Of a DNA stretch of 39,775 nt, positions 99 to 14,117 are shown piece after piece. The position numbers and the translations under genes are program-made. This DNA comes from Cryobacterium shii. GTDB lineage: Bacteria > Actinomycetota > Actinomycetes > Actinomycetales > Microbacteriaceae. Numbering within the stretch: the first letter of the stretch is position 1; each line of letters starts with the position of its first letter. The notes under the pieces were generated by a model that was not told the origin of the DNA, did not search any database, and saw only the letters and a list, made by a program, of their open reading frames with translations. The stretch lies in the NCBI RefSeq assembly GCF_004402595.1, contig NZ_SOFY01000001.1, positions 1-39,775 of the forward strand, in the 5' to 3' direction.

Positions 99-539
99 AG
101 CCAGCTGCCAGGCCTCTTCGAGTTCCGGCATCCGGATGTAGTGCGCTCGCACCCGGTGCCGGCACGCGGCTTTCGCCAGCGCGCAGCCCAGGTACGATTT
201 CCCCGACCCGGTGAAGCCCTGGAACACGACGTTCTGCTGCCGATCGATGAACGAGCACGTGCCCAGCCCCGCGAGCATCGACCGGTCAAGGCCGCGTTCC
301 TCGACCAGGTCCAGACGGCGCAGGTCCGCGTTCGGATAGCGCAGGTTCGCCCGGCGGATCAGCCCCTCGACCTTGGTTTGGGTGAAGACGGAGTGGGCGT
401 CATCGACGGCGAGTTTGATCTTCTCCTCGAACGCCAAACCAAGGGTGAGGGTGTCGTCTTGCGCGTCGAACGCGTCCAGCAGGGTGGACACGCCCATTTC
501 GCGGAGCTTGCGTTTGGTCTCGATATCGATCCGGCTCAT
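57..539 (-). pseudogene. istB: IS21-family helper ATPase IstB, 3'-truncated
   Basis: IstB is the AAA+ ATPase that assembles on target DNA and activates the IstA transposase. The 160-aa product has the IstB N-terminal region and a Walker A motif GFTGSGKS (residues 108-115), and family resemblance runs to about residue 147 (MPELEEAWQLA). It then ends in 13 unrelated residues read from the IS terminal repeats. Normal IstB is about 250 aa, so Walker B, sensor motifs and the arginine finger are missing. The start overlaps the istA stop as ATGA (536-539), the usual coupling in this family. The product should be inactive, so transposition would need IstB supplied from another copy. Confidence 0.85.
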
Positions 540-2104
540 CGTGCACCGCCTCCGTAGTAGTCGGCGCCGCGGACATATCCGCCGGATTCAGGTTCGGCGG
601 GTTCGAAGCGAGGCATCTTGCGGGTGCTTTTCTTGTCTTGCCCCGTCTCCAGGATCGGTTGCAAGTGCGCATACCGGGGCGAGCGAACACGACCCTCCAG
701 CGCGATCTGGCACGCCTTTTCCACTCGCTCACTGGAATAGCGGCGGCTCAGCCGCAGCGCTGCGAGGGCGGCGTCGAAGCCTTGCTCTTCCACCGGCACG
801 ACCTCGAAGATCCTGTTCACCACGGTCACCATGTGCGGGCCGACTCGTTCGGCCCAAGCCCGGATCCGGACGGTGTCCCACTCCCGATACTTCTCGCCCT
901 GGGGCTGGTCGGCATCGTTCGTGCGGTATTCGTTCACGACATGCTCGCCGAACAGCAGGTGGCTGGTGAGCCGCTCATGGTTTCGATAGATCTCCAGCAG
1001 TTGGCTTGTGATGCGCAGATCCACGGCTTGGCCGATCTGGGCGTAGGGGGCGGAGTAGAAGTTCTTCTCCCAGACCACATGCCCGTTCTTCTGCACCCGA
1101 CGCCCGATGATCCACCGGCTGATCTCGTAGGGAGCCGACGGCAGCGGCCGCAGCAACGCCTTCTCCTCGGTTTGGAACACGCTCAGGCGGGAGCCGGCAC
1201 GTTTCTGGAACGGTTCCCGGTTATAAGCATCCATGCGCTCCCGGATCGCGGTCCGCAGTTCGGGAAGCGCTCCGAAGCTCCGATGACGTAACCCTGCGAT
1301 CACCCAGGTGGCAACATGAGAGACCGTATTTTCCACGCTCGCTTTGTCTTTTGGCGCCCGCGGGCGGCCCGGCAGCACGGCTGCCGAGTAGTGCGCTGCC
1401 ATCTCCCGGTAGGCGTCGTTCAACACGATCTCACCCTCGCGGGGGTGCTTGATCACGCCGGTCTTCAGGTTGTCGGGCACGATCCGGGGAACCGTTCCGC
1501 CGAACCACTCGAACATCGCGACGTTGGCCAGTAGCCAGGTGTCTTGCCGCATATCCAGCGCCGGTTCGACGAACGCATACCGGGAAAACGGCAGACATGC
1601 CACGAACAAATACACCCGAGACGTCTCGCCCGTCACCGGGTCGGTGAGCTGCATCGTCGGCCCCGACCAGTCGACCTCGACCGTCCGCCCAGCCTTATGG
1701 CCAACCCGCGACGCCGCCCCCGTGACCAAGGTGTGCGCCGCGTATGCCTTGCAGAATCGGTCATATCCCATCGCCGGCTGCCCCGTCACCGCGCACCCGT
1801 CGACATACTCGCCATGGAGCAGCTTCAGCGTCACCCCGACCTTGCCGAGCTCTTTGTGCACCCCATCCCAATCGGGCTGCACGAACACACTCTCGTGCTC
1901 GCCGCGGCCCGGGAACAGCAGCGCATATACCTCGCCGTCGCTGCGGCCAACGTGACCGTCACGGCCGATGCCGGCCTGGTCAGCGGCATTGAACACGGCC
2001 AGCACGCTCTTGCGCGACATGCCCTGCGCGAGCGCGATCCCGCGCCCCGTCATGCCCTCGGCGCGGAGTTCGAGCACCAGCTTCGCTTTGATCCTTCGTA
2101 CCAT
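536..2104 (-). CDS. istA: IS21-family transposase IstA
   Basis: This is a 522-aa DDE transposase of normal length. An N-terminal helix-turn-helix region (about residues 8-45) precedes an rve/RNase H-like core. The probable catalytic triad is D145 (in VEVDWSGPT), D211 (in VPDNLKTG) and E258 (in KDKASVENT). The C-terminal region has the Mu-type beta-barrel character seen in IstA. It overlaps the truncated istB by 4 bp. The start at 2104 is supported by a strong Shine-Dalgarno GGAAGGAG nine bases upstream, which lies inside a long hairpin (separate entry). The gene looks intact, but its partner is broken. Confidence 0.92.
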   Translation of the reverse strand: MVRRIKAKLVLELRAEGMTGRGIALAQGMSRKSVLAVFNAADQAGIGRDGHVGRSDGEVYALLFPGRGEHESVFVQPDWDGVHKELGKVGVTLKLLHGEYVDGCAVTGQPAMGYDRFCKAYAAHTLVTGAASRVGHKAGRTVEVDWSGPTMQLTDPVTGETSRVYLFVACLPFSRYAFVEPALDMRQDTWLLANVAMFEWFGGTVPRIVPDNLKTGVIKHPREGEIVLNDAYREMAAHYSAAVLPGRPRAPKDKASVENTVSHVATWVIAGLRHRSFGALPELRTAIRERMDAYNREPFQKRAGSRLSVFQTEEKALLRPLPSAPYEISRWIIGRRVQKNGHVVWEKNFYSAPYAQIGQAVDLRITSQLLEIYRNHERLTSHLLFGEHVVNEYRTNDADQPQGEKYREWDTVRIRAWAERVGPHMVTVVNRIFEVVPVEEQGFDAALAALRLSRRYSSERVEKACQIALEGRVRSPRYAHLQPILETGQDKKSTRKMPRFEPAEPESGGYVRGADYYGGGAR

Positions 2105-2113
2105 TACTAATTA

Positions 2114-2151
2114 CTCCTTCCGCCGCGTGCCTATACACGCAGCGGAAGGAG
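2114..2151 (-). promoter_or_regulatory. Hairpin sequestering the istA ribosome binding site
   Basis: Arms 2114-2129 (CTCCTTCCGCCGCGTG) and 2136-2151 (CACGCAGCGGAAGGAG) pair over 16 positions with one A-C mismatch around a 6-nt loop. In the istA mRNA the 3' arm contains GGAAGGAG, nine bases before the ATG at 2104. Transcripts that run through the whole structure would therefore mask the istA ribosome binding site. Known insertion sequences such as IS10 and IS50 use comparable folding to block translation from read-through transcripts. The structure is directly visible; its function is inferred. Confidence 0.7.
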
Positions 2152-2160
2152 CTAAGCAGA

Positions 2161-2248
2161 TGGCCCTCAACAGAAATACTCGGTGGCCCCACACCGCGCT
2201 ACTGACCAGATCGACCAGTGGCCCCGAACGTCAATAACACTGGCCCCC
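2161..2248. repeat. IS21-type left end with repeated TGGCCC(C) motifs
   Basis: TGGCCC-type motifs start at 2161, 2184, 2219 and 2241, all in the same orientation. Two are preceded or followed by similar AGAAATACTC/GCAAATACTC blocks. This is the multiple-repeat terminus expected upstream of istA in IS21-family elements. The element probably ends near 2250-2280, but no target duplication can be matched because the other end differs. Confidence 0.6.
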
Positions 2249-2373
2249 AGAAGCGCAAATACTCAGTTGCCCTTGAGCGCCTCCTGAGCGAGCTCTGCTT
2301 GGGGGATGTCGCCACCGCTGCTGGGCAAGTATGACTGTCGCGGGCAAGCGAATGAACGCTTTGGGCCTGCTGA

Positions 2374-2405
2374 GACGGGTGAAGAGCGTAGGCACTCCAC
2401 CCGTC
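2374..2405 (-). terminator. Possible terminator of the leftward helicase operon
   Basis: GACGGGTG (2374-2381) and CACCCGTC (2398-2405) form a perfect 8-bp stem, with a further GAG/CTC pairing inside the loop. It lies 8 bp beyond the helicase stop codon. There is no U-tract, so efficiency is uncertain. The rest of 2249-2412 shows no convincing gene. Confidence 0.4.
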
Positions 2406-2412
2406 CGAGCTG

Positions 2413-4560
2413 TCAGCTAGCGTCTACGAGCGCGGCCGCCTTCGCACGTGCGTCTGCGTCTGCCTGGGCATTCACGAGCGCGAGGTCAATCGCCAGTGAG
2501 CGATTGACTACGGCGGTCAGGGTCTGCTGCGGCCTCGTCGCGCCACCCCTCGGCGGGCACGCGCAGCTGGAGCCCATGCGTCGGATCCTGGCATGATCTC
2601 CGACGTGAGCCGGATCGACAACACCGTCGTCTTCGACGGCGCGACGCTCCCAGTCGGTGTTGTCTCGCGCCTGGAGATCCGTCAGTTCCTGGATGCCGCC
2701 CGGCAGTGAGGTGCGCCGCTGCAATCCCTTGTAAGTTGTCGCTTTGTTGTTCCAGGCATCCGAGGGGACGCCATATTCCTGCAGCATCGGTTCCTCACCG
2801 AGCATCCGCTGGGCACGATTAATCACCCTGTCGCGGCCGTCAGAGAACCAGAGCTGATCATTACGCACGGCCTCCATCAGACGGTCATTGAACGTCTGCC
2901 TTCCCATCGGCTTACTTCCTGGATTCTCGCGTACGCGCCACGCCTCAAACAGGTGGTGCAGAAACGGGAACGGGAGGAGGTCCCATGCAAACTGCTCACG
3001 AAGCTCCACCCAGAACTCGCGAACCAAATCGTTTCGGATCTGCGCTTCCTCTTTCAGGTCGCGGCACGATTTCGGCTCTGAGAGCGTGTAGTGAGTCATG
3101 TGGAGAACCCTCCACAGCACATACTCCAGAACCTTCTTATCGCTGAGGAAGGTCTCTTTGATCTCTGGGAAGGCGGCCCCTGTGAAACTCTTGGGGAAGG
3201 GGACGAACAGCTGGCGGCGCGAGAACGAGCTGGACTTGTCCTTTGTGCTGAGAAGCGCATTGACGCACTGAACAATAAAGCCGCGAAAGCGGATCGTGAT
3301 TACCCTTCGCCCCTTGCGGTTGATCGGGATCCGATCGCCGGTTACGGCGGCCTTTAGGTTGGCCAAGAAGGTCAAATGCTCCCCGACATTGTTTTCGTCG
3401 ACCAGCACGGCGAACGCCGTTAGGAGCGGCTCAAGCTTGAAGTCATTGCCCGGCCCGCCCCACTGGTCGAGAGGAATCGAGCAGTACGCGCCAGAGCCCT
3501 CGCCGAACAGATGCTGGATCATCTCCACGAGGGTGCCCTTGCCCGATTCGCCGAGGGTGCTGTAGAAGAAGGCCATCTTGTTCCAACGAACGCCCGGGCG
3601 GACGCTGGCGCTGATGATCTCCCAGACAGTATTCGCAACATTCTCAGCATCATCCAGCGGTTCGAAGAGATCGAGCAGCCAGTCACTGAATTGCCACGGC
3701 GAGCGGTCGCTGAGGAAGCGCATCGGTTCTTCAGGCTCGGTGCGCGGGCAGTCGACGGCGAGCTTTGACGTGAAGACATCGACGTCGGGGTCGTAGTCCC
3801 TCTGGGTCTTCGTCTTGAAATCGAAGACGCGGCTCTTGCACGGGATCGCGTCGCGATCGGAGGTCTTTTCTACGCGAGGCACGATGTCGTAGAGCTTGCC
3901 GATGATCTCCCTCATCTTCGGGTCGGAGACGTCCTGGTCGAAGCCGAGGATCAACGCTCTCAGGGCCGACTCGTCTGAGACAAAGAGGCCGCGGTTCGCG
4001 CCGGTGGGCTGGTAAAAGCTGAGTTCATCGAGAGTCGTATCACCCAGGCCAGCGTGCGCGATCCGACGGATCCGATGCCAGCGCGCGGCCAGCTTTGCGA
4101 GCTGCCAGGCGGTCAACGCGGCAGGGGCGCCACCCGGCACGTACACAGGCCGCTGCTTGCCGTCTTCCCCGTACCATTCGCGGATGCATGCCATTGTCGT
4201 GCGCACCAAGAGCTCCGAGTTCGAGGTCAACTTCGCGGGCAGTGCCGTGGGGTCGAGCCCTGCGAGCCCCCCAAGGTATCTTTCGGTGGCGTGGTGGATC
4301 CGCTCCGCACGACTCCACTGCTGCGGAAGTTCGTCAAGCCAGCTGTTCTTGTCGAACTCGACGTTGGGGTCAGGCGCGAACTCCGTGTCGGCTATCGAGC
4401 CTTCCTCGTCGCTGGTAGGACGCTCGTAGCCATTCTCGGTGAGAGAACTACTCGTCGGGAGCGCGTGATCATTAGCGGAGGTCCTCCCCTCGGGGTTGGC
4501 AGCGCGGACGAGGTTGGGCTGAACTTCCTTGTCCCTTTCGGCGTCTGTTGTTAGAGTCAT
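2413..4560 (-). CDS. D5-type phage/plasmid helicase (DUF5906-like, SF3)
   Basis: The 715-aa product carries a superfamily 3 helicase core: Walker A GESGKGT (337-343), Walker B AVLVDEN (384-390), a motif C-like CVNALLSTKD near 432-441, and SRRQLFVPF with a likely arginine finger at 448-449. A D5-N-like region precedes it. No TOPRIM or archaeo-eukaryotic primase motif is obvious in the N-terminal 300 residues, so it may act only as replicative helicase. Such proteins replicate prophages, plasmids and phage satellites. The start is supported by AAGGAC eight bases upstream of the ATG. It is the last gene of a leftward unit starting at the excisionase-like gene. The final 70 residues are low-complexity and could reflect a rearranged C-terminus. 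Confidence 0.82.
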   Translation of the reverse strand: MTLTTDAERDKEVQPNLVRAANPEGRTSANDHALPTSSSLTENGYERPTSDEEGSIADTEFAPDPNVEFDKNSWLDELPQQWSRAERIHHATERYLGGLAGLDPTALPAKLTSNSELLVRTTMACIREWYGEDGKQRPVYVPGGAPAALTAWQLAKLAARWHRIRRIAHAGLGDTTLDELSFYQPTGANRGLFVSDESALRALILGFDQDVSDPKMREIIGKLYDIVPRVEKTSDRDAIPCKSRVFDFKTKTQRDYDPDVDVFTSKLAVDCPRTEPEEPMRFLSDRSPWQFSDWLLDLFEPLDDAENVANTVWEIISASVRPGVRWNKMAFFYSTLGESGKGTLVEMIQHLFGEGSGAYCSIPLDQWGGPGNDFKLEPLLTAFAVLVDENNVGEHLTFLANLKAAVTGDRIPINRKGRRVITIRFRGFIVQCVNALLSTKDKSSSFSRRQLFVPFPKSFTGAAFPEIKETFLSDKKVLEYVLWRVLHMTHYTLSEPKSCRDLKEEAQIRNDLVREFWVELREQFAWDLLPFPFLHHLFEAWRVRENPGSKPMGRQTFNDRLMEAVRNDQLWFSDGRDRVINRAQRMLGEEPMLQEYGVPSDAWNNKATTYKGLQRRTSLPGGIQELTDLQARDNTDWERRAVEDDGVVDPAHVGDHARIRRMGSSCACPPRGGATRPQQTLTAVVNRSLAIDLALVNAQADADARAKAAALVDAS

Positions 4561-4837
4561 CGTTAAGTCCTTTCAGCCGAGCAACGAGCTGTAACTCGTC
4601 GGCTGGAGATAGAAATCGTGTAGAGCGCCTCGGCAATTGCCGGGGCGTTTTGCTTGTATTCACTTGGTCGGGCCGCGTCGACATCTGTGCTTCGGCATTC
4701 GGCTCACGCTGCCTGCACGAATCGTGCTGTACCCAGGCAACGATGTCGCCTTGGCGCCAGCGCACTTCGTGCCGGATCTTCTTGATGGCACGGGGTAGCG
4801 ACTCCCCGTTCGAGCGCGGGCTGGGCCTCTTTCGTGC
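4472..4837 (-). pseudogene. AlpA/excisionase-like HTH fragment without a start codon
   Basis: The frame begins directly after the TGA at 4840-4838 and soon reads SLPRAIKKIRHEVRWRQGDI followed by VAWVQ. This matches the second half of AlpA/MerR-type excisionase domains (GxLPxxIKxGxxVRWxxxDIxxWL). The first helices of the domain are absent, and no ATG, GTG or TTG precedes the motif; the first GTG (4765) lies inside it. The frame runs on past the helicase start, overlapping it out of frame. It is most likely a decayed gene, unless translated by read-through or frameshift from the ORF upstream. Confidence 0.4.
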
Positions 4838-5005
4838 TCACTTGTGACCACCGCCGCCCAAGAAGAGGCCGCGCAGTCGCAACGCCTGCTGGGCAGAGAG
4901 AGCAGGTGCGGAAGCCGCCTCAGCGCGCGCCCACGCGCGAATCGCCTCAAGTTCCGTCATCGGCGGCGGCGACGTCCTGGTCCGCTCAAGGAGCGCGGCG
5001 GTCAT
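4838..5005 (-). CDS. Small coupled ORF (55 aa) after the excisionase-like gene
   Basis: The ATG at 5005 overlaps the TGA of the upstream gene as ATGA, a strong sign of real translational coupling. The product is Ala- and Arg-rich with a helical stretch (TELEAIRAWARAEAAS) and ends in GLFLGGGGHK. I do not recognise a named domain. Small proteins of this sort, ending shortly after an LxxLRxLF-like helix, are common beside excisionases in actinobacterial elements, but a function is unknown. Confidence 0.5.
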   Translation of the reverse strand: MTAALLERTRTSPPPMTELEAIRAWARAEAASAPALSAQQALRLRGLFLGGGGHK

Positions 5006-5226
5006 CGGGTGCCCCGCGAGGGGGCTACGAGCGCCTCCAGGTAGGCGTCGAGGTCGGCAGGGAGGATCCGCCAGCGCCCGCCCACCTTGTAGGCAGGTAG
5101 CCGCCCGGTGCGGATATCGTCGCGAAGGACGAAGCTCGATCGCCCGCTTGTGTCCTCCGCCTGCGGTACGGTGAGCGCGCAACGCAGGTCGTCGTATGTG
5201 GGTGTCGATGCATCACTGGGTATCAC
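5002..5226 (-). CDS. Excisionase-family / MerR-like HTH DNA-binding protein
   Basis: This is a 74-aa protein whose second half, FVLRDDIRTGRLPAYKVGGR followed by WRILPADLDAYLE, is the signature of the HTH_17/excisionase family: a recognition helix, a G-LPAYKVG wing and a DLDAYL helix. Such proteins direct integrase-mediated excision or repress early genes. The GTG start at 5226 has AGGAG seven bases upstream. It is the first gene of a leftward unit downstream of a consensus promoter (5346-5374), and it is coupled to the next ORF by ATGA. Confidence 0.75.
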   Translation of the reverse strand: MIPSDASTPTYDDLRCALTVPQAEDTSGRSSFVLRDDIRTGRLPAYKVGGRWRILPADLDAYLEALVAPSRGTR

Positions 5227-5345
5227 GGAACACTCCTAAGTAGGTCGTGTCCCGAAGAGGCCGCCGCATCGAGATTGAGTTTTTCCGGCCATGGATTGTG
5301 TTTAGTGAAGGCTCCGCCGGATCTTGCTGTTCTGTTATGTTTGCT

Positions 5346-5374
5346 ACATTAGTTACGTTTCCTATGCATGTCAA
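5346..5374 (-). promoter_or_regulatory. Consensus sigma70-type promoter for the leftward operon
   Basis: On the minus strand TTGACA (5374-5369) is followed after exactly 17 bp by TAATGT (5351-5346). Transcription would start near 5339, about 110 bp before the excisionase-like GTG. This near-perfect promoter is unlike the weak ones elsewhere in the window and resembles early promoters of phages and mobile elements. It also overlaps the region that must drive the divergent gene at 5396. Confidence 0.7.
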
Positions 5375-5395
5375 CACTAGGAAAGGATCCGATTC

Positions 5396-5968
5396 GTGCC
5401 CATTACTCCAGAAACCGAACTGCGGGAGCGCGACTGGCACGTCAGTGCGTCAAACGGACTCATCGACGTTCACCCAGGCATTGCGATACCGCGCCTCGTG
5501 CGTGCAGGGGGGCCGCTGAGTCGTGTGCCGTCAGCCGAAGTGGGTGCCGCGGCCCTCGACGAGGGGTTCCGACTCGAGATTGAAGCTGTGTACAGTCAGC
5601 CGCTCGGCTACTACACACTGCGCTCGGTTTCCCTCGTTGCGCCAGAGGATGAAGAAGTCACAGGGGTACTACTGCGCACTGTGACGCCCCTCGGCGTCAT
5701 GCGCTGGATACTGCCGCGCACATTTCAGCTCGACGCCTCGGCGCTCAGCGTTGCCGTCGTGGACTTCGTCGCACCCGAGCTCAAGCCATATCGGAAGGCG
5801 CCCAGCGGGGGATCCGTGAGCATCGATCTGACGGATGTCGGAACTGTATATCGCCTCGCGACGATTGTGCGCTATCCGCCGGCGAAGGCGGTGGCCGAAA
5901 CGTTTTGCCTCCAGGCCCGCACCGCCACCAACTGGATTGCACGGGCTCGGGCCGTCGGCCTGATCTGA
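5396..5968 (+). CDS. Unknown 190-aa element protein with C-terminal HTH
   Basis: The GTG start at 5396 has AGGAAAGGA about nine bases upstream. The first 140 residues have no recognised fold. The last 45 (VYRLATIVRYPPAKAVAETF then CLQARTATNWIARARAVGLI) match the pattern of a small HTH in which a P-A-K/T-AVAE helix is followed by S/T-A-xx-W-V/I-xx-AR-xx-GL. This arrangement recurs in hypothetical proteins of actinobacterial integrative elements. It is divergent from the excisionase-like operon across a shared promoter region, so it could be a regulator of that switch. It converges on the integrase gene. Confidence 0.7.
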   Translation: MPITPETELRERDWHVSASNGLIDVHPGIAIPRLVRAGGPLSRVPSAEVGAAALDEGFRLEIEAVYSQPLGYYTLRSVSLVAPEDEEVTGVLLRTVTPLGVMRWILPRTFQLDASALSVAVVDFVAPELKPYRKAPSGGSVSIDLTDVGTVYRLATIVRYPPAKAVAETFCLQARTATNWIARARAVGLI

Positions 5969-5972
5969 TTGA

Positions 5973-5995
5973 GGGCGTGGAGGCGTCCCCACGCC
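5973..5995 (+). terminator. Hairpin after the 190-aa HTH gene
   Basis: GGCGTGG (5974-5980) pairs with CCACGCC (5989-5995) just after the stop codon of the preceding gene. It lacks a U-tract. It lies between two convergent genes and may stop transcription in one or both directions. Confidence 0.35.
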
Positions 5996-6008
5996 GGCGT
6001 ACCCCGCC

Positions 6009-6041
6009 GAGGTGGAGCCGGCACTGAGGTGGAGCCGGCAC
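6009..6041. repeat. 16-bp direct repeat at the integrase 3' end
   Basis: GAGGTGGAGCCGGCAC occurs at 6009-6024 and again at 6026-6041, separated by one base (17-bp period). It sits between the HTH gene stop and the integrase stop. It could be a slippage product or a pair of protein-binding sites; nothing in the sequence decides between these. Confidence 0.6.
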
Positions 6042-6059
6042 CGACGCTTCTGCTCCGAG

Positions 6060-7610
6060 CTATCGCCAGTCGTAGGTGACTCTGCCAGGATTTGCGCCCT
6101 TTCGCCCCACCGCCTCCGGCGGTACACGGTGAATCCTTGGCACGATCAGTTCTCTGATCACATGGCGCTGCCATGCGATGTCACCCGCTTGGTCACGCTC
6201 CGCCCACATCTCGCGCACCCGTCCGGACTGAGCCAGCTCGAGCACGAGGGGGTCAGCCGCTGCCAGCGATTCGAGCCGTCTCCGTGCATCTTCAATCTTG
6301 GGTTCCACAAGATCGCGCTGTTCTGTGAGCATTCGCAGGTCGCGGCGACGCTCGGCCTCCGTCGCAACCTGGTCAAGCCACTCCTGGTGACCTCGGATCT
6401 CCTCCAGGACCGCATCGCGCTCTGCATTGACGTCTTCGTCCTGTTCGCCCAACGTTGCCAGGAAGTCAGGTCGCTCCAGGCGAGCCAGCACGAGCTCTGT
6501 GATGATCAGGTCTAGGTGCTCCTCGCGCATCGAGACATGGAACCCTGGTCGCCCCGGCATGCCGATGCATTGGTAGGCGTGGTAACGAGGTCGGGGGAGT
6601 GGCTCGCCGTTCTCGTCATACTTCTGAACTCCGCCGTTCTGCCGCCCGACACGCATGCGGGCGCCGCACTCTCCACAGAGCGCGATGCCGGAGAGTAGAT
6701 GCTTGGCTGGCCAATTGTTGGACTTGAAACCCCGTGAGCCCATAGCAAGCTGAAGTTTCTCCCAAGCCTCCGGGTTGATCAGGGGAGGCCAGATGCCTTC
6801 GTATGTCGCGAGTTCACCCTCGGTTGGATTGTGCTCGCGCTTGCCTGTGTAGACGGACATGGTCAGCATCTGCTTCACAGCGGGGGCGGTCCAGCCCATC
6901 GACTTGCGGTGTACCTCGCGCGCCGGGCGTCGTGGCGGGATGCCCTTCTCGTTGAAGGTGGCTGCGATGTCGTAATAGGAGCGGCCCATGAGCACCATCG
7001 CCGCTGCTTCCTTCACGACCCAAGCTTGGTCGGGGTGTTCAACCACTCTTTCGAGGACCCGCATTCCGTTGGGCTTCACTGAGTAAATCCGCTGATACCC
7101 GTACACGTTTTTTCCGTGAGGTCGCCCGCTCTTGGCGGCAGCCCGCATATCTCGTTTAAGCCGCTCGCTGGTCTTGTCGGACTCGTATTCGGCGTCAGAT
7201 GCGTCTTCGCGCAGGCTATGACGGTCGCGGGAATTGCTCGGGTCGTACACGCGATTGTGCGTGAGAACCCAAATCTGTACTCTGTGGTCGCGGCAGAGAT
7301 CGATGAGATCGATCCACTCTCCCGTCCTGCGAGAACCTCGGCTTGACTCCCAAATCGCGAGCAGATTAGCTTCGAATCTGCCCTCTTCGAGGTCTGCGAC
7401 AAGTTGCGCGAAGCCCTCTCTGCGCTTGGTTGCGAAGCGACTGGCGCTGCGGTTGTCATCGCGGTAGTAGCTGGAGTGGACTTGCCAGCCGCGCCTGTGC
7501 GCCTCTGCGGTGATTTCGTCGTGTTGCTGATCGGGGCTCTTACCTGTGCCCGAGCGGTCGAGTGAGACGCGCAGATACTCCCGCACAAGTAGGTTTTGGT
7601 CATCCAGCAC
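6060..7610 (-). CDS. Large serine recombinase (integrase)
   Basis: The 516-aa protein has the resolvase catalytic domain with the likely nucleophile S16 in YLRVSLDRSG, plus conserved arginines in RGSRRTGEW. A recombinase domain follows (about 165-290), then a zinc ribbon (C312 and C315 in LCGECGARMR, C348 in YQCIG, with H358 a possible fourth ligand). A coiled-coil-like Glu/Arg-rich segment lies near 395-445. This is the architecture of phiC31-type integrases, which recombine attP and attB without supercoiling. The start is GTG at 7610. It lies in the island that interrupts comEC and is the best candidate for the enzyme that inserted it. Confidence 0.92.
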   Translation of the reverse strand: MLDDQNLLVREYLRVSLDRSGTGKSPDQQHDEITAEAHRRGWQVHSSYYRDDNRSASRFATKRREGFAQLVADLEEGRFEANLLAIWESSRGSRRTGEWIDLIDLCRDHRVQIWVLTHNRVYDPSNSRDRHSLREDASDAEYESDKTSERLKRDMRAAAKSGRPHGKNVYGYQRIYSVKPNGMRVLERVVEHPDQAWVVKEAAAMVLMGRSYYDIAATFNEKGIPPRRPAREVHRKSMGWTAPAVKQMLTMSVYTGKREHNPTEGELATYEGIWPPLINPEAWEKLQLAMGSRGFKSNNWPAKHLLSGIALCGECGARMRVGRQNGGVQKYDENGEPLPRPRYHAYQCIGMPGRPGFHVSMREEHLDLIITELVLARLERPDFLATLGEQDEDVNAERDAVLEEIRGHQEWLDQVATEAERRRDLRMLTEQRDLVEPKIEDARRRLESLAAADPLVLELAQSGRVREMWAERDQAGDIAWQRHVIRELIVPRIHRVPPEAVGRKGANPGRVTYDWR

Positions 7611-7971
7611 GTTACTGACCCTATGGGGTGACCGTGCCGTGCGTGAACTGTGCCGAGGTGGGATCAGACCGGGCGGTGCTGGCTCCCATTGGCGTGGCCT
7701 TCAGCTTCTGGGTGTGGAACCACGTTTGAAGCGCTAGTTGCGTGTCGCGTCCTCGTTGCGGATGAGCGACGCCGGCAATGATCGGCCAGCATGTTGACGT
7801 CGCATCAAGGTTCGGTTCGCAACTGGGCGGCCTGGAAGACGACATCGCCCGCCAATGGCTGCGATGCGCGAGGACCTCTCCCACGAGACGTTCGGACGAT
7901 CGGCGGGTTGACGTGTTGGACTCAGTCCAGTGTTGCCTGGGTGTCGACCTTCCCGTCGGGCTATGGAGCAA
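7611..7971. other. 361-bp gap upstream of the integrase; possible att region
   Basis: No convincing gene is visible. A short dyad, ACCC-TATG-GGGT, lies around 7617-7629, directly before the integrase GTG. Large serine integrase genes often lie beside attP, so this gap could have held an attachment site. I cannot identify a core shared with the comEC junction at 12513. Base composition is mixed, and reading frames across it lack recognisable protein sequence. Confidence 0.3.
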
Positions 7972-8820
7972 TCAGCGATCGAAAACGGTGAAGTCGAGAT
8001 CCAAGATCGCCTGTTTGATGAGAGACGCATCGTCGCCAGCAATGGTCTTTAGATCCGCGAAGATGTCCCAACCCCCGTCTTTCGCGAGTGGACTTGTGAG
8101 AGTGAAATAGCACAGATCGTCGTCCTCGAGGGTTGCCAGCAGACCCGCCTGCTCTAGATGCTTCGCGCGACGTTCGATCTCGTAGTCCTTGATATTTGCA
8201 ACCCCTTCAATGTGGACAACTGATGCTCCGATGCCCTTGTGGAGCCCTGTTCCAAATCTAGGTTCCAGATCGCCGTGAATCAGTATGAGTGCGATCAAGT
8301 CGCGTATGGCTATCGGTTGCTTCGCAAGGGCGGAAACAAACGCCGTCATCTCGGGGAGGCTCTCGGCGGCAAAGGCACCGTCGTCAACTCCATCGAGCGC
8401 GCGGAGGTTGACGGGAAATCTTGGCGTCAACCCTGCAGTTGTGTCTACGATGCGGGCAAGCCCAGCCATCGCTTCGCGGTACCAAGATTCGTGATCAGAC
8501 TTCATCTTTTTGACGACAGCGACCGTGTAGCGGTCTTCCAAGTCTTTGTTGTCGATGACCTTGTGGTGCTCACGGCATACCAGAAGTAAGTTTTGAGGGT
8601 CTCGTAGTTGTTCGTCGTCCAGCGAGTGGTCGCCGCGCGCGGCAGTCAGCTTGACGCCCTGGATGTGTGCAACCTCGCAGTTCCAAGTTCCGTCGTCTCT
8701 CAGGAGCGACTTGTTGCAACTCTCGACGGCGGTCTGGAACGCACAGCGATTGCCGGAATACAGATACAGTTCGCGTGTCGCTGCCGATACAGGGGTCAGA
8801 CGATTGCGCGTGTCGCTCAT
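7972..8820 (-). CDS. HNH-nuclease domain protein
   Basis: This is a 282-aa protein with an N-terminal HNH domain. C26 and C35 are followed by H52 in CEVAHIQGVK, N77 in DPQNLLLVC, C82, and H85/H86 in CREHHKVID. The pattern fits a metal-dependent HNH endonuclease of the kind found in restriction and defence effectors. Residues 150-282 form an alpha/beta region that I do not recognise; it may sense or bind a partner. It is divergently transcribed from the SIR2-HerA operon with a 285-bp gap and lies next to the integrase. It may be separate cargo or a companion of the defence operon; nothing shows a direct link. Confidence 0.8.
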   Translation of the reverse strand: MSDTRNRLTPVSAATRELYLYSGNRCAFQTAVESCNKSLLRDDGTWNCEVAHIQGVKLTAARGDHSLDDEQLRDPQNLLLVCREHHKVIDNKDLEDRYTVAVVKKMKSDHESWYREAMAGLARIVDTTAGLTPRFPVNLRALDGVDDGAFAAESLPEMTAFVSALAKQPIAIRDLIALILIHGDLEPRFGTGLHKGIGASVVHIEGVANIKDYEIERRAKHLEQAGLLATLEDDDLCYFTLTSPLAKDGGWDIFADLKTIAGDDASLIKQAILDLDFTVFDR

Positions 8821-9105
8821 GCGCTCAGCCTAGCCAGCGACTTTGGAATTCGACCGCACTGCACGGCGCCACCGAGGGCGGGTCTGCGCAAGTTCGTCGG
8901 TCCCTGGCGCTTGAACCGACCAGACGGCCCTGGATATCAGCACCTCGACCGGAAGAGCCGGCCGAGGCGGAACTCATCGCCCAACCGAACAATGTCCGGC
9001 CGTCGGTTCAGGAGAAAGCCCTGATAGTGGCGTTGCGACCTGGTGTATCCGCAGGTTGTGGCACTTCGTCAGGATCTGCATTGAACATCCGATACCTTCA
9101 GAATC

Positions 9106-10257
9106 ATGCTCACTCACAACGTTGCCAGTTTCGCCGGAGGACTGAGTGCGAAGCTCGCCACACGATCGCGGCACGTGTGCACGTTCTTCGGAGCTGGTAC
9201 TTCTAAAGCATGCGGCCTACCCGACGTCGTCCTGCTGACGGCGAACATCTCGGCCGGGCTGGAAGGCAAGCAACTCGAATCGTTCAAGCGCCTCACCTCG
9301 TCCCGCAATCTCGAGCAGGCCCTTAGTCGGCTGAGAAGGATTCAGGCGGTCGTAGACGAAGGGGACGTGGTCGACGGCCTCACCCTGGAGCAAGCGAAAG
9401 ATCTCGATCTGGCAATTTGCAAACTGATCATCGAGGAGTTGTCCGCTGTCGATGCTGATATGGAACCCGTCGACAAGCTGGCGGCTTGGGTCGCTCGTGC
9501 CGACTACTTGCGGCCAATCGAGTTGTTCACCGTCAACTACGACTGCGTACTAGAGACAGCGCTGGAATCGAGAGGCGTTCCGTACTTCGACGGGTTTGTT
9601 GGGACGTGGAAAGCGCGGTTCAGGACAGACATGGTCGAGGCAACCCAGAACGACTCAGAAGTCCTGTTGCCACCTTTCTTCGCAAGACTGTGGAAGTTGC
9701 ATGGTTCCGTGAACTGGACGTGGGATCAGACCCATCCAGCGGGTGAGGTCCTGCGGCTGGGTGCCACCGTTCCCAACGATGAGGTCGCTGCCATTTTTCC
9801 CTCGGACGCCAAATACGAGGAATCCCGCCGCATGCCCTTCGTCGTGCTTCAGGACCGACTCCGACGCGCACTCAACGAACCCGAAACTATGTTTCTCGTA
9901 TCGGGCTATTCGTGGGCTGATGATCACCTGAATGAGCTCTTCTTCGATGCCGCGGCTCGCCGACCACGTTCGGAGTTCATCGCCTTCTGTTATTCGGCTA
10001 TCCCCGCCAACCTGGCAGAAAAAGCGATGCAGACGCCGAACCTGCAGGTGATCACGCAAACTGAGGCCATCATCGGTGGTCTTCGTGCCCCCTGGGAAGG
10101 CCCTGGTGAGGGCGTGACTCTTCCCGATGACATCTGGAACGGGACAACTTGCGGGCTTGGAGACTTTGGCAACCTGGCCAGCTTCTTGTCGCGGAGTTCC
10201 TCGGACTCCAGCTTGGACAGCCAGAGTCGACCAGTTGGAGTCTCGTATGTCGGATAG
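9106..10257 (+). CDS. SIR2-family protein (candidate NADase of a SIR2-HerA system)
   Basis: The 383-aa protein carries SIR2 hallmarks: the NAD-binding loop FFGAGTSKACGLPD with GAGTS at 29-33, TVNYD at 142-146, and KLHGSVNW at 197-204, where H199 is the likely catalytic histidine. In defence SIR2 proteins this fold cleaves NAD+ rather than deacetylating proteins. The C-terminus ends in a Ser-rich tail that overlaps the next gene by 11 bp. The ATG at 9106 lies 26 residues before the glycine loop; its ribosome binding site is weak. It is the first gene of a three-gene operon with a HerA-type ATPase. The SIR2-HerA pair is a known anti-phage system (also called Nezha). Confidence 0.9.
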   Translation: MLTHNVASFAGGLSAKLATRSRHVCTFFGAGTSKACGLPDVVLLTANISAGLEGKQLESFKRLTSSRNLEQALSRLRRIQAVVDEGDVVDGLTLEQAKDLDLAICKLIIEELSAVDADMEPVDKLAAWVARADYLRPIELFTVNYDCVLETALESRGVPYFDGFVGTWKARFRTDMVEATQNDSEVLLPPFFARLWKLHGSVNWTWDQTHPAGEVLRLGATVPNDEVAAIFPSDAKYEESRRMPFVVLQDRLRRALNEPETMFLVSGYSWADDHLNELFFDAAARRPRSEFIAFCYSAIPANLAEKAMQTPNLQVITQTEAIIGGLRAPWEGPGEGVTLPDDIWNGTTCGLGDFGNLASFLSRSSSDSSLDSQSRPVGVSYVG

Positions 10258-12010
10258 GGACGAGACTTATGTCGGCCGAGTGAGGCACGTTCTTGGCTCG
10301 CAGATAACAGTGGAACTGGATCCTGGCCTCGCCGGAATCGCGCCAATCTACCGCGGGCAGCTTCAGCAAATCGGACAAATCGGTTCTCTTGTTCGGCTGC
10401 CCCAGGGAATGGTAGATCTCATCGCTACCGTCACCCTCGTTGGCATATCAGAACTGACTGCTGGACTGGGCCCTCGCGAGAATTCCTCGGCGGGCGAGAG
10501 ATGGCTGCAAGTGCAACTCCTCGGCGAGGTCGATAGGGGAACGAGGCAATTTCGCCGCGGCGTAGGTTCTTATCCAGGTCTTGACGATCCCGTCCATTTC
10601 GCCCGGAGGGAGGAGCTGGAAGCCGTCTATCCTCCTTCATCGACCTCGCACATTCGCATTGGTCGGCTGTCAGCTGCGGAGACAGTTCCTGTCGCCCTTG
10701 ATGTCAACAAACTGGTCGTTCGCCATTCTGCCGTGGTTGGCTCTACGGGTTCCGGAAAAACAAGCGCAGTCGCGTCACTCCTGCAGGGCTTCGCCAATGG
10801 GCACTGGCCCGCAGCCAACATCGTGGTCATCGACAGCCATGGCGAGTACTCTCATGCGCTGTCCGGACATGCGTCTGTTAGGTCTGTCCTTGGCCCAGAA
10901 AGTGGCCGGCTACACGTCCCGTACTGGGCGCTCCCAGCGGAGGACATCTTGCGGGCCTTTACCGGGTCCTCCGGAGGCCCGACGACCCAGAAAACGTGGG
11001 CGACCCTGGTCGCGGAGGAGCGACGCAAATTCGTGAATGCGGCCTCTTGGCTCCACCTCGATCCACACGCGATTACTGCAGACACTCCAGTGCCGTTTGA
11101 TGTTCGCGAGGCATGGCTGCAGCTGGACTCTGAGAACAGAGAAACTCGGCAAACCAAAGCAAATCCAGATTCAATCTGTCTGGAAGTTGCGGGAGACGCG
11201 TCAACCCTGACATCGGCGATTTACACCCCTCACGGTCCCGCAGGAAGTCCGCCCATGCAGGGTCCTTTTTTCGGTGTTCACGGGAGCACACCGGAACTCC
11301 TCCGCCTTGGTCTCCTCGACCCTCGCCTGGCATTCATGTTGGAGCCAGCTGGGACCATCGATGGGCCCGACCCACTCGTCGACGCTGTCGACTCATGGAT
11401 CGGGGGGACAGCGCCAGTATCAGTCCTCGACTTCAATGGTGTACCCGATTCGGCCGCCGAATTGGCCATCGGCGTCATTCTAAAACTGCTTTTCGACGTC
11501 GCGATACGAACGCCGAGTGGAATCGACGGCATCGGCCGCCCAAGCCCCATTCTCATCGTGCTTGAGGAAGCCCACCGATACTTAGGCGACAAGGCAGCAC
11601 CCATTGCACGAGATGCCGCAAATCGAATAGCTCGGGAAGGTCGAAAGTACGGAGTCGGACTTATGCTCGTGACTCAGCGGCCGTCCGACCTGCCGGACAC
11701 GGCATTGGCGCAATGTGGGACCATCATCGCCCTGCGTCTGAGTAACAGCGCTGACCAAGGCAGAATTCGGACAGCTTTACCCGACAGCGTCGTCGGGCTT
11801 GCAGAAACGCTCCCTTCCCTCAGAACGGGAGAAGCAATCATCAGTGGCGAAGCGCTCGTATTGCCAACTCGCGTGGTCCTCGACCGACCGAATCCCCTCC
11901 CACTGGCCGAGGACCCTTCCCTAGAGCCGTGGCGCACCAACGCTGGAACGCGAGGCGTAAGCGGTGCTTTGGCCCGGTGGCGGGGCATTTATGAACAGGA
12001 GAGAGAATGA
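10247..12010 (+). CDS. HerA/FtsK-like hexameric ATPase of a SIR2-HerA system
   Basis: The 587-aa protein has an N-terminal HerA-barrel-like beta-rich region (about 8-120), Walker A GSTGSGKT (165-172), Walker B ILIVLEEAH (435-443) and the downstream RxGRKYGVGLMLVTQRPSDL region typical of HerA/VirB4-type ATPases. TTGGAG lies upstream of the ATG at 10247, which is 11 bp inside the SIR2 gene, so translation is probably coupled. In studied SIR2-HerA systems the two proteins form a large complex with nuclease, ATPase and NADase activity. This copy looks intact in all motifs. Its stop overlaps the next start as ATGA. Confidence 0.9.
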   Translation: MSDRDETYVGRVRHVLGSQITVELDPGLAGIAPIYRGQLQQIGQIGSLVRLPQGMVDLIATVTLVGISELTAGLGPRENSSAGERWLQVQLLGEVDRGTRQFRRGVGSYPGLDDPVHFARREELEAVYPPSSTSHIRIGRLSAAETVPVALDVNKLVVRHSAVVGSTGSGKTSAVASLLQGFANGHWPAANIVVIDSHGEYSHALSGHASVRSVLGPESGRLHVPYWALPAEDILRAFTGSSGGPTTQKTWATLVAEERRKFVNAASWLHLDPHAITADTPVPFDVREAWLQLDSENRETRQTKANPDSICLEVAGDASTLTSAIYTPHGPAGSPPMQGPFFGVHGSTPELLRLGLLDPRLAFMLEPAGTIDGPDPLVDAVDSWIGGTAPVSVLDFNGVPDSAAELAIGVILKLLFDVAIRTPSGIDGIGRPSPILIVLEEAHRYLGDKAAPIARDAANRIAREGRKYGVGLMLVTQRPSDLPDTALAQCGTIIALRLSNSADQGRIRTALPDSVVGLAETLPSLRTGEAIISGEALVLPTRVVLDRPNPLPLAEDPSLEPWRTNAGTRGVSGALARWRGIYEQERE

Positions 12011-12228
12011 CTATGGACTGGCGACCAGTTACATCCGCCCGTATCGTCGCTGAAGCGTACGACGTGGAAACAGAGACCATCTATGTGGAGTTCCCGAAGG
12101 GCGGCGTCCAGTGGTGGTATTCCGCTTGCCCGCCTGAAGTCTGGGAACAATTCACAGCAGTTGGACAGTCTAGAGGCCAGTTCATCCACCAGGTCCTCAA
12201 TTTCAAACCGAACGGTCGGTCGGCTTAA
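12007..12228 (+). CDS. KTSC-domain small protein, third gene of the operon
   Basis: The 73-aa protein fits the KTSC domain: a leading Ser, a YDxETxxIYVEFPKGG strand pair, the WWYSACPPEVWEQF block and a final SRGQFIHQVL. In the family these correspond to YDxxxxxLxVxFxxG, YxYxxVPxxVYxxF and SxGxxFxxxI. Its biochemical role is unknown. The ATG overlaps the HerA stop (ATGA, 12007-12010) and AGGAGAG lies just upstream; a second in-frame ATG is at 12013. The tight coupling to SIR2 and HerA suggests a shared function such as triggering, modulation or immunity, but this is inference. Confidence 0.72.
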   Translation: MTMDWRPVTSARIVAEAYDVETETIYVEFPKGGVQWWYSACPPEVWEQFTAVGQSRGQFIHQVLNFKPNGRSA

Positions 12229-12512
12229 CGCCGCGTGCAGAACGTGATGTAAGAGCGCTCAGCGGTTGCGCCCACGTGACATCGAGTTGGTTGAACTCGG
12301 CCCCGACTCGACCGAGGGTCTTCGTCGCATTGTCCATGCCGCGCACAACCAACGTTCCAGTGGCAGTCTTGTCGAACCTGCACCCGGCGGGTTGAGGCGA
12401 GCACATGCCAAAGACCCTTAGACGTTGACCGGCCCGGGACCACGCTAACGTCTGCCAATTCTTGGGCGACTCGATCCGCCTCGCAAATAAGCACCCATCT
12501 GTCTTGTTATCC
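12229..12512. other. Right edge of the island before the comEC junction
   Basis: The 284 bp between the KTSC gene and the comEC remnant has lower GC than the core genes and no recognisable protein. An open frame on the minus strand (12514 to 12203) would encode 103 residues but has no family resemblance. The boundary with core sequence falls at about 12511-12520, where comEC sequence starts. This should be one attachment-site hybrid of the integrated element. Confidence 0.55.
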
Positions 12513-14117
12513 ATGTCCGGCGCGAATTGCGCGGTGGTGATCGCGGGGATCATGCTGCTCGGCGGGTACCTGCGGCTCGGACGCGGGATGCGCATCACGT
12601 TGTCCCTCGCCACGCTGCTGGGCTTCGTGGTGCTCGTGACACCGGAGCCCAGCGTGCTTCGCGCGGCGCTGATGGCCACGATCCTGATGCTCTCCGTCGC
12701 GTCCGGCCGGCCGGGCCGGGGTGTGCCGCTGCTGGCCCTGGTCGTCGTGGTTCTGCTGGTGGCAGATCCGTGGCTGGCGCGCAGTTACGGCTTCGCGCTC
12801 TCGGCGCTGGCCACGGGCGGGCTCCTGGTGCTCGCCGGTCCGTTGACCCGGGTGCTGAGCCGCTGGATGCCGACCGCGCTGGCAGCGGTGATCGCAATCC
12901 CGCTCGCCGCGCAGCTGGCCTGCCAGCCCGTTCTGGTGCTGCTGACCCCGACGCTTCCGCTGTACGGGGTGCCGGCGAACCTGTTGGCGGGCCCGGCGGC
13001 CCCGTTCGCGACCGTGGTCGGCCTGGTGGCCTGCCTGCTCCTGCCCTGGTTGCCGGGGATCGCCGGGGGAGTCCTGTACCTGGCCTGGCTGCCCGCGGCC
13101 TGGATCGCGGCGATTGCGCGCACGAGCGCGCTCCTGCCGGGGAGTCGGCTGCCGTGGCTCGGGGGAGTCGTCGGGGTGGCTGCCACGGGCATCCTGACCG
13201 TCGCGTTCGTGGCGCTCGTTCTCCGCCGTCCGGGGGCGGTCCGGGGCTGGTGGCCGCCGACCGCCGTCGCCGTGCTCGTCCTGGCGGGCGGCGCCTACAC
13301 CGGGACCCTGATCGGGTCGGGCGTGGGACGTGCCGTGGCCTTCCCGGCGGACTGGCAGATCGCGGCCTGCGACATCGGGCAGGGTGACGCGGTCGTGGTG
13401 CGGGATCAGGACCTCTACGCACTGGTCGACGTGGGGCCTGATCCGGCGCTCCTGGCGGAATGCCTCGACACCCTCGGAATCGACCGGATCGATCTGCTCG
13501 TGCTCACCCACTACGACCTCGACCACATCGGGGGCGTCGAGGCCGTGATCGGCCGGGTCGGAACGGCCCTGGTCGGCGTCCCCGAGAACGCAGAGGACGA
13601 GCGCCTCCACCTGCGCCTTGCGCGGGGCGGCGCGGACGTGCGTCAGGCCGCGCGCGGCGACACCGGAACGCTCGGCGCACTGCGCTGGGAGATCTTCTGG
13701 CCCGTTCGGGGTTCCCCGGCGATGCAGACCGGCAACGCCGGGAGCGTGACCATCGGGTTTGACGGGCGCGGAATCCGTTCGATCTTCCTCGGCGACCTCG
13801 GCCAGGAACCGCAGGACGCCCTCCGCCGGGTCGCCCCACTCGCCACCGTGGACGTGGTCAAGGTGGCCCACCACGGGTCGAGGGACCAGAGCCCTCAACT
13901 CTATGCCGACCTGCGAGCCACCGTCGGGCTCATCTCGGTGGGCCGAGATAACGGCTACGGGCACCCGACCGACGCCCTCCTCGGCATGCTGGCATCCGCG
14001 GGCACGCTCGCCCTGCGCACGGACCTCGGCGGGATGATCGTGGTCGCGCCCGCCCCGGACGGCGGCGGTGCCCTCACCGTGTGGACGGAGACCGTGCCGG
14101 TCGGCGGCCCCGACTAG
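12513..14117 (+). pseudogene. comEC: ComEC DNA-uptake channel, 5'-truncated by the island
   Basis: The frame begins with SGANCAVVIAGIM, the conserved motif normally preceded by HLTAV inside the ComEC competence domain. Many transmembrane segments follow, and then a metallo-beta-lactamase-fold domain with LTHYDLDHIGG (near 330) and KVAHHGSRDQSP (near 450). The retained 534 residues are the C-terminal two thirds of a protein usually near 750-800 aa. The N-terminal part, including the OB-fold/DUF4131 region, is missing and replaced by accessory DNA. ATG at 12513 or an in-frame TTG at 12462 could give a stump protein, which is unlikely to support DNA uptake. holA follows in the usual order. Confidence 0.88.

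Follow-up and report, generated by a model that had tools for sequence, protein, structure and literature searches.

A SIR2-HerA operon of Cryobacterium shii in which a separate KTSC gene probably encodes the C-terminal domain of HerA

In SIR2-HerA anti-phage systems, HerA forms a hexamer that bears SIR2 and activates the hydrolysis of NAD+, and active SIR2 effectors are toxic. The KTSC domain owes its name to the C-termini of lysyl-tRNA synthetases. Among the entries of the Protein Data Bank (PDB), the 8J4U group presumably represents the E. coli ‘Nezha’ SIR2-HerA system, and 8ZIQ, 9C1M and 8XAU presumably represent HerA-DUF4297 and like systems. Entries 8WIV, 8WLD, 8WOC, 8WOD and 8WOF are what we take to be the Paenibacillus sp. 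453MF SIR2/HerA complex of Liao et al. (2024). A single sentence of PMC9503650 mentions, as an unpublished observation, HerA variants that are paired with a KTSC gene and have an endoDNase instead of the sirtuin. We found no paper naming KTSC in SIR2-HerA; as most subscription papers and the 8WLD structure paper lay outside the search, this absence is unproven. Here we describe an operon of Cryobacterium shii, in a stretch of 39,775 nucleotides (assembly GCF_004402595.1, contig NZ_SOFY01000001.1, positions 1 to 39,775; hereafter the window), in which SIR2 and HerA genes are followed by a KTSC gene:

9106..10257, + strand: SIR2-family NADase-type effector gene (383 aa; PF13289 53.8 bits; PADLOC SIR2 2.7e-107)
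10247..12010, + strand: HerA hexameric translocase-type ATPase gene (587 aa; PF01935 100.8 bits, PF05872 49 bits; PADLOC HerA 6.5e-132)
11997..12001, + strand: AGGAG, likely ribosome-binding site of KTSC, within the 3' end of HerA and before the KTSC start
12007..12228, + strand: KTSC-domain gene (73 aa; PF13619 28.1 bits, cut-off 25)

An earlier note on this DNA had named these three genes and their overlaps. Pfam bears out all three assignments and PADLOC those of SIR2 and HerA, while the overlaps of 11 bp (SIR2/HerA) and 4 bp (HerA/KTSC, ATGA) are confirmed on the sequence. The 73-aa protein belongs to PF13619, where it scores just over the curated threshold, and it has the KTSC fold. The reading frame of HerA can be extended upstream to an ATG at 10127; the start at 10247 agrees with the relatives, many of which have purine-rich stretches before their KTSC starts. 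The SIR2 residues N144 (TVNYD) and H199 (KLHGS), presumably catalytic, are invariant in 14 aligned sequences, as are G165-K171 (Walker A region, P-loop) and E440-H443 (EEAH motif) of HerA, at the listed positions, in 16. With SIR2 and HerA adjoining in one operon, the locus is by its gene content a predicted SIR2-HerA anti-phage system. PADLOC named both genes in the operon and gave no match for KTSC, and neither did NCBIfam for the KTSC protein. The NCBIfam SIR2_antiphage/HerA_antiphage equivalogs NF042942, NF042943 and NF042944 remained far below their cut-offs (54.1/500, 174.6/800 and 203.3/850 bits); because the E. coli C5 relatives likewise fall far under them, these models describe other branches. 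Promoter and terminator scans returned nothing beyond chance, and the Rfam scan nothing at the gathering threshold.

The nearest solved relative of the window HerA is 8wiv (phmmer, 349 bits, residues 11-601). The best PDB relative of SIR2 is 8w9l (162 bits), a sequence that also serves as SIR2 in the SIR2/HerA entries 8wld, 8woc, 8wod and 8wof. The 73-aa KTSC protein shares homology with residues 629-695 of HerA in 8WIV/8WLD, its C-terminal domain. To judge from this homology, the third gene is HerA's own C-terminal tail domain, encoded separately, and since that domain is part of HerA in the solved SIR2/HerA complex, ‘two-gene’ and ‘three-gene’ members of the branch would differ in gene architecture and not in parts. 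We thus favour the reading that the window probably carries a SIR2-HerA anti-phage system whose HerA consists of two polypeptides, a motor (587 aa) and a detached C-terminal KTSC domain (73 aa). The earlier note had proposed a variant with an extra regulatory, sensor or immunity component: a third component is indeed conserved, but its homology to the C-terminal domain of HerA speaks against an added module.

Conservation of the third gene is apparent from two surveys. Seeded with KTSC, the first retrieved 45 database relatives, 64-96% identical to the window protein, 41 of which are exactly 73 aa long. A scan of 84,980 species genomes with two short peptide patterns, by which divergent KTSC is missed, yielded 28 KTSC loci; the host phyla include Actinomycetota, Pseudomonadota, Chloroflexota, Acidobacteriota, Gemmatimonadota and Myxococcota. 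At 25 of these 28 loci KTSC is immediately preceded by SIR2 and HerA, in the same order and on the same strand. The exceptions are two mycobacterial loci with KTSC and no HerA (L046, L050) and a 19-residue chance match (L051), which is kept in the count. At three of the 25 loci one gene is split into two frames in the public sequence (SIR2 in L033, HerA in L036, KTSC in L049). The HerA of a Caballeronia locus (L029) is interrupted by runs of N, which also produced an apparent HerA-KTSC fusion there that we rejected. Given the number of relatives at this identity, their uniform length and the recurrence of the gene beside HerA across phyla, the three-gene arrangement is not a product of chance. 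A scan of viral contigs with the KTSC alignment found no relative, and the four distant HerA matches in phage records all fall short of 80% coverage of HerA. When only close matches were counted, the C5 operon occurred in one of 5426 complete E. coli genomes and the Citrobacter operon in none.

Because 23 of the 43 KTSC-positive rows in the HerA tree described below were retrieved through KTSC itself, the set seeded with HerA is the less biased evidence. A HerA match was present in 628 plasmid records. In every one of the 32 ranked highest (33.1-65.0% identity over 79-100% of HerA), KTSC is the next gene downstream, as established from fetched loci for 14 and by coordinate comparison for 18. 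Half of the 32 (H15-H29, H32) resemble copies of a single Enterobacteriaceae/Aeromonas operon, and a haloarchaeon, Natrinema zhouii, is represented with both HerA and KTSC. KTSC was not present at any of eight more distant plasmid HerA loci (H33, H35, H36, H54, H56, H60, H63, H71), seven of which have SIR2. Records H34, H37-H40 and all lower ones except H54, H56, H60, H63 and H71 fall outside this plasmid survey of KTSC, and some lower-ranked records have short HerA matches at slightly more than 33% identity. Among whole genomes, HerA matches occur at E 1e-20 in 10 of 299 from the family and at E 1e-30 in 7 of 396 from the phylum, our own genome included, and their KTSC state fits the same division into loci with and without the gene. 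Many other SIR2-HerA loci therefore have a KTSC neighbour, which clearly removes the objection, raised in advance by the earlier note, that none might; the conserved, translationally coupled third gene that it had put forward finds support in both surveys.

A tree of 58 HerA sequences places the 43 KTSC carriers on one side of a single branch and the 15 others on the opposite side (98/92; 96% of bootstraps). Partial HerA sequences (L011/L062, L029, L036, L052, L067, L070, L072, L073) and same-genome repeats (L016, L017, L018, L020) are not part of it. For the KTSC-negative rows with little sequence past HerA (147 bases in L071, about 200 in L021-L023), the longer stretches of L016-L018 and L096 contain no KTSC either. 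The distances between HerA sequences and between KTSC sequences correlate (r 0.96 for 42 loci, 0.66 for 27 near relatives), with none of 2000 permutations as high. The window HerA falls in the KTSC-bearing branch and its KTSC gene is present; this is a SIR2-HerA branch in which every HerA examined carries KTSC.

These observations suggest a probable mechanism. KTSC would bind the HerA ring at about 1:1, in the position of the fused domain, and would bridge neighbouring HerA subunits, so that the hexamer might be stabilised or gated. The overlapping start and stop codons may keep the amount of KTSC matched to that of HerA. Infection would then trigger the assembled complex, SIR2 would hydrolyse NAD+ and phage growth would be halted in the infected cell. 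We infer that free KTSC plays the same part as the fused domain. In the SIR2/HerA complex, HerA is reportedly stabilised by a unique C-terminal extension; if so, KTSC would be this extension.

Several points weigh against a detached HerA domain acting in this manner. The ring-stabilising role would rest on that reported extension and on analogy with the hook of HerA-DUF4297. This C-terminal hook of HerA, described in PMC11291478, is not seen in SIR2-HerA according to a passage of PMC12198126 that cites Liao et al. (2024). The profile of near-relative KTSC alone matches 8wiv weakly (E 0.55); only with divergent KTSC genes from the same branch of HerA added to it is the match strong. A joined HerA-KTSC query against the protein database, limited to its KTSC part, gave 13 candidates for a natural fusion, none of which scored; because no natural fusion was recovered, a single solved sequence is the basis for the fused form. 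The dS values of 2-3 are near saturation, and once four long-branch rows are taken out of the tree, a single change has lower support (92/85; 90% of bootstraps). KTSC also occurs without intact HerA (L046, L050, L052), and on the Agrobacterium pusense plasmid NZ_CP076849.1, where HerA matches in two places, it lies about 9 kb from the listed one, which suggests an interrupted operon.

Could KTSC instead be a dissociable sensor or nucleic-acid adaptor on the HerA ring, recognising phage DNA, RNA or protein and licensing the complex? A separate chain can come and go, and PMC9503650 and PMC7824862 mention a DNA-binding and an RNA-binding KTSC domain, respectively. KTSC genes without HerA, beside ThiF-family genes on haloarchaeal plasmids and near a SMODS-ThiF-JAB set in Mycobacterium sp. 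Root135, would also be compatible with such a role. However, the KTSC proteins are neutral or acidic, with a net charge of zero or below in all 46 aligned close ones (median -3) and in all 10 divergent ones, which makes a general surface for nucleic-acid binding less likely; the fused version in the solved complex, moreover, makes free exchange unnecessary there. We consider this explanation unlikely, although it survives better than those that follow. It is rather doubtful, too, that the separate KTSC is a true control subunit that leaves and reloads on the ring, its loss or capture during infection switching between an idle and a SIR2-activating state; in that case KTSC would act as a clamp for the enzymes of conflict systems in general, and lineages would differ in having lost, fused or split it.

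We find it improbable that KTSC is an immunity or antitoxin-like subunit restraining the SIR2 NADase until infection. The gene is small, last and translationally coupled, as antitoxin genes can be, and active SIR2 would be toxic, but KTSC keeps in step with HerA and has a homologue in one of its domains, and the eight distant plasmid HerA loci without KTSC, seven of them with SIR2, indicate that SIR2 effectors in general need no KTSC antidote. A translation-related passenger lying beside the operon by chance is hardly credible, in spite of one KTSC plasmid match annotated lysS_2 and of KTSC without intact HerA at two mycobacterial loci and on one Rhodococcus plasmid, since the same position at 25 of 28 KTSC-seeded loci and in the 32 top HerA-seeded plasmid records already contradicts it and the Rhodococcus case retains a HerA C-terminal remnant just upstream.

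KTSC is also found in other settings. On three haloarchaeal plasmids (H102, H104, H106) KTSC matches overlap or adjoin genes for ThiF-family adenylyltransferases, perhaps another conflict system using KTSC. In Mycobacterium sp. Root135 (L046, 10001-14051) there is KTSC without HerA, and less than 1 kb away the opposite strand carries a set of SMODS nucleotidyltransferase, ThiF and JAB genes like that of CBASS loci. On the Rhodococcus qingshengii plasmid (L052, 5792-6219) only a C-terminal remnant of HerA precedes the KTSC gene, which has probably persisted there while the operon around it decayed.

A mobile island carries the operon as cargo and separates the two parts of comEC. The 5' part lies on another contig (G000:C83:28869-29645); the remaining features are in the window:

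6060..7610, - strand: large serine recombinase of the carrier element (516 aa; PF00239, PF07508, PF13408)
7672..12272, no strand assigned: cargo slot from the recombinase to the right end, holding an HNH gene and SIR2-HerA-KTSC (blastn break points against L058)
12514..12520, + strand: TGTCCGG, common to both element/comEC junctions (left junction in G000:C83 near 29,645), the probable crossover core
12521..14117, + strand: comEC 3' part (PF03772, PF00753)

In many of 57 genomes of the genus the comEC frame has about 800 aa or more. A sister element in the same genus (L058; G054:C70, 10520-15931) occupies the same comEC junction and is 91% identical to the window over 4836-7671 (recombinase region) and 80% over 12273-12520 (right end). 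Its cargo slot differs, with an AbiTii gene (PF18864 7.8e-33) and a 308-aa gene of unknown function. Other serine recombinases abut truncated comEC in G004 (L060) and G020 (L059). Thus comEC is a recurrent landing site in the genus, and the cargo of at least two of the elements there is of a defence type. Coordinates alone place a second site near query residue 303, where comEC is split by about 27 kb in G008 (L063) and about 22 kb in G041 (L064). The island would exceed 60 kb if it takes in all of C83 past the junction, a stretch with GC mostly 0.60-0.68, the contig order being inferred. Genes for an HsdM-type methylase and an HsdR-type subunit, with one open reading frame between them, lie at about 65700-71950 of G000:C83 (L093 16718 to L094 3352); if the contig order holds, the island would thereby also hold a type I restriction-modification system. 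Within the window, a 282-aa protein (7972-8820, - strand) has an N-terminal HNH region like that of SAVED-HNH effectors (PADLOC matches residues 5-122 only). The stretch 536-4560 (- strand) holds a transposase with rve and Mu-transpos_C_2 domains and, at the left end of the contig, a DUF5906/Pox_D5-type primase-helicase.

Although two genes are the usual description of such an operon, our results suggest that a widespread SIR2-HerA branch is a machine of three parts, its KTSC gene kept beside HerA in many bacteria as well as in at least one archaeon. The third gene escapes the defence models of PADLOC and NCBIfam that we used, and cloning SIR2 and HerA alone from the KTSC branch may omit part of HerA. 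A little-understood domain is thereby placed concretely in a solved complex, where its function becomes directly testable.

Compared with the free-standing KTSC structures 4RGI and 7X8C, whose entry titles name no partner, the window protein is one of a group linked to HerA. The 8J4U group, 8ZIQ, 9C1M and 8XAU share with our locus a HerA-type ATPase and an effector partner; however, their HerA proteins score 116-195 bits against that of the window, lower than 8wiv, and their chains contain no KTSC domain at E 1 or better. The variants mentioned in PMC9503650 also couple a HerA-like ATPase with a KTSC gene, but as that sentence describes them an endoDNase takes the place of the sirtuin, whereas the window keeps its sirtuin with KTSC; our operon is not a member of that system, and the HNH gene at 7972-8820 lies upstream of it on the opposite strand. 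The complex of the 8WIV/8WLD group, in which the KTSC fold is present, is the closest to ours in both HerA (349 bits) and SIR2 (162 bits), and it differs in that KTSC forms the C-terminus of its 696-aa HerA, whereas in Cryobacterium shii it is a separate protein of 73 aa.
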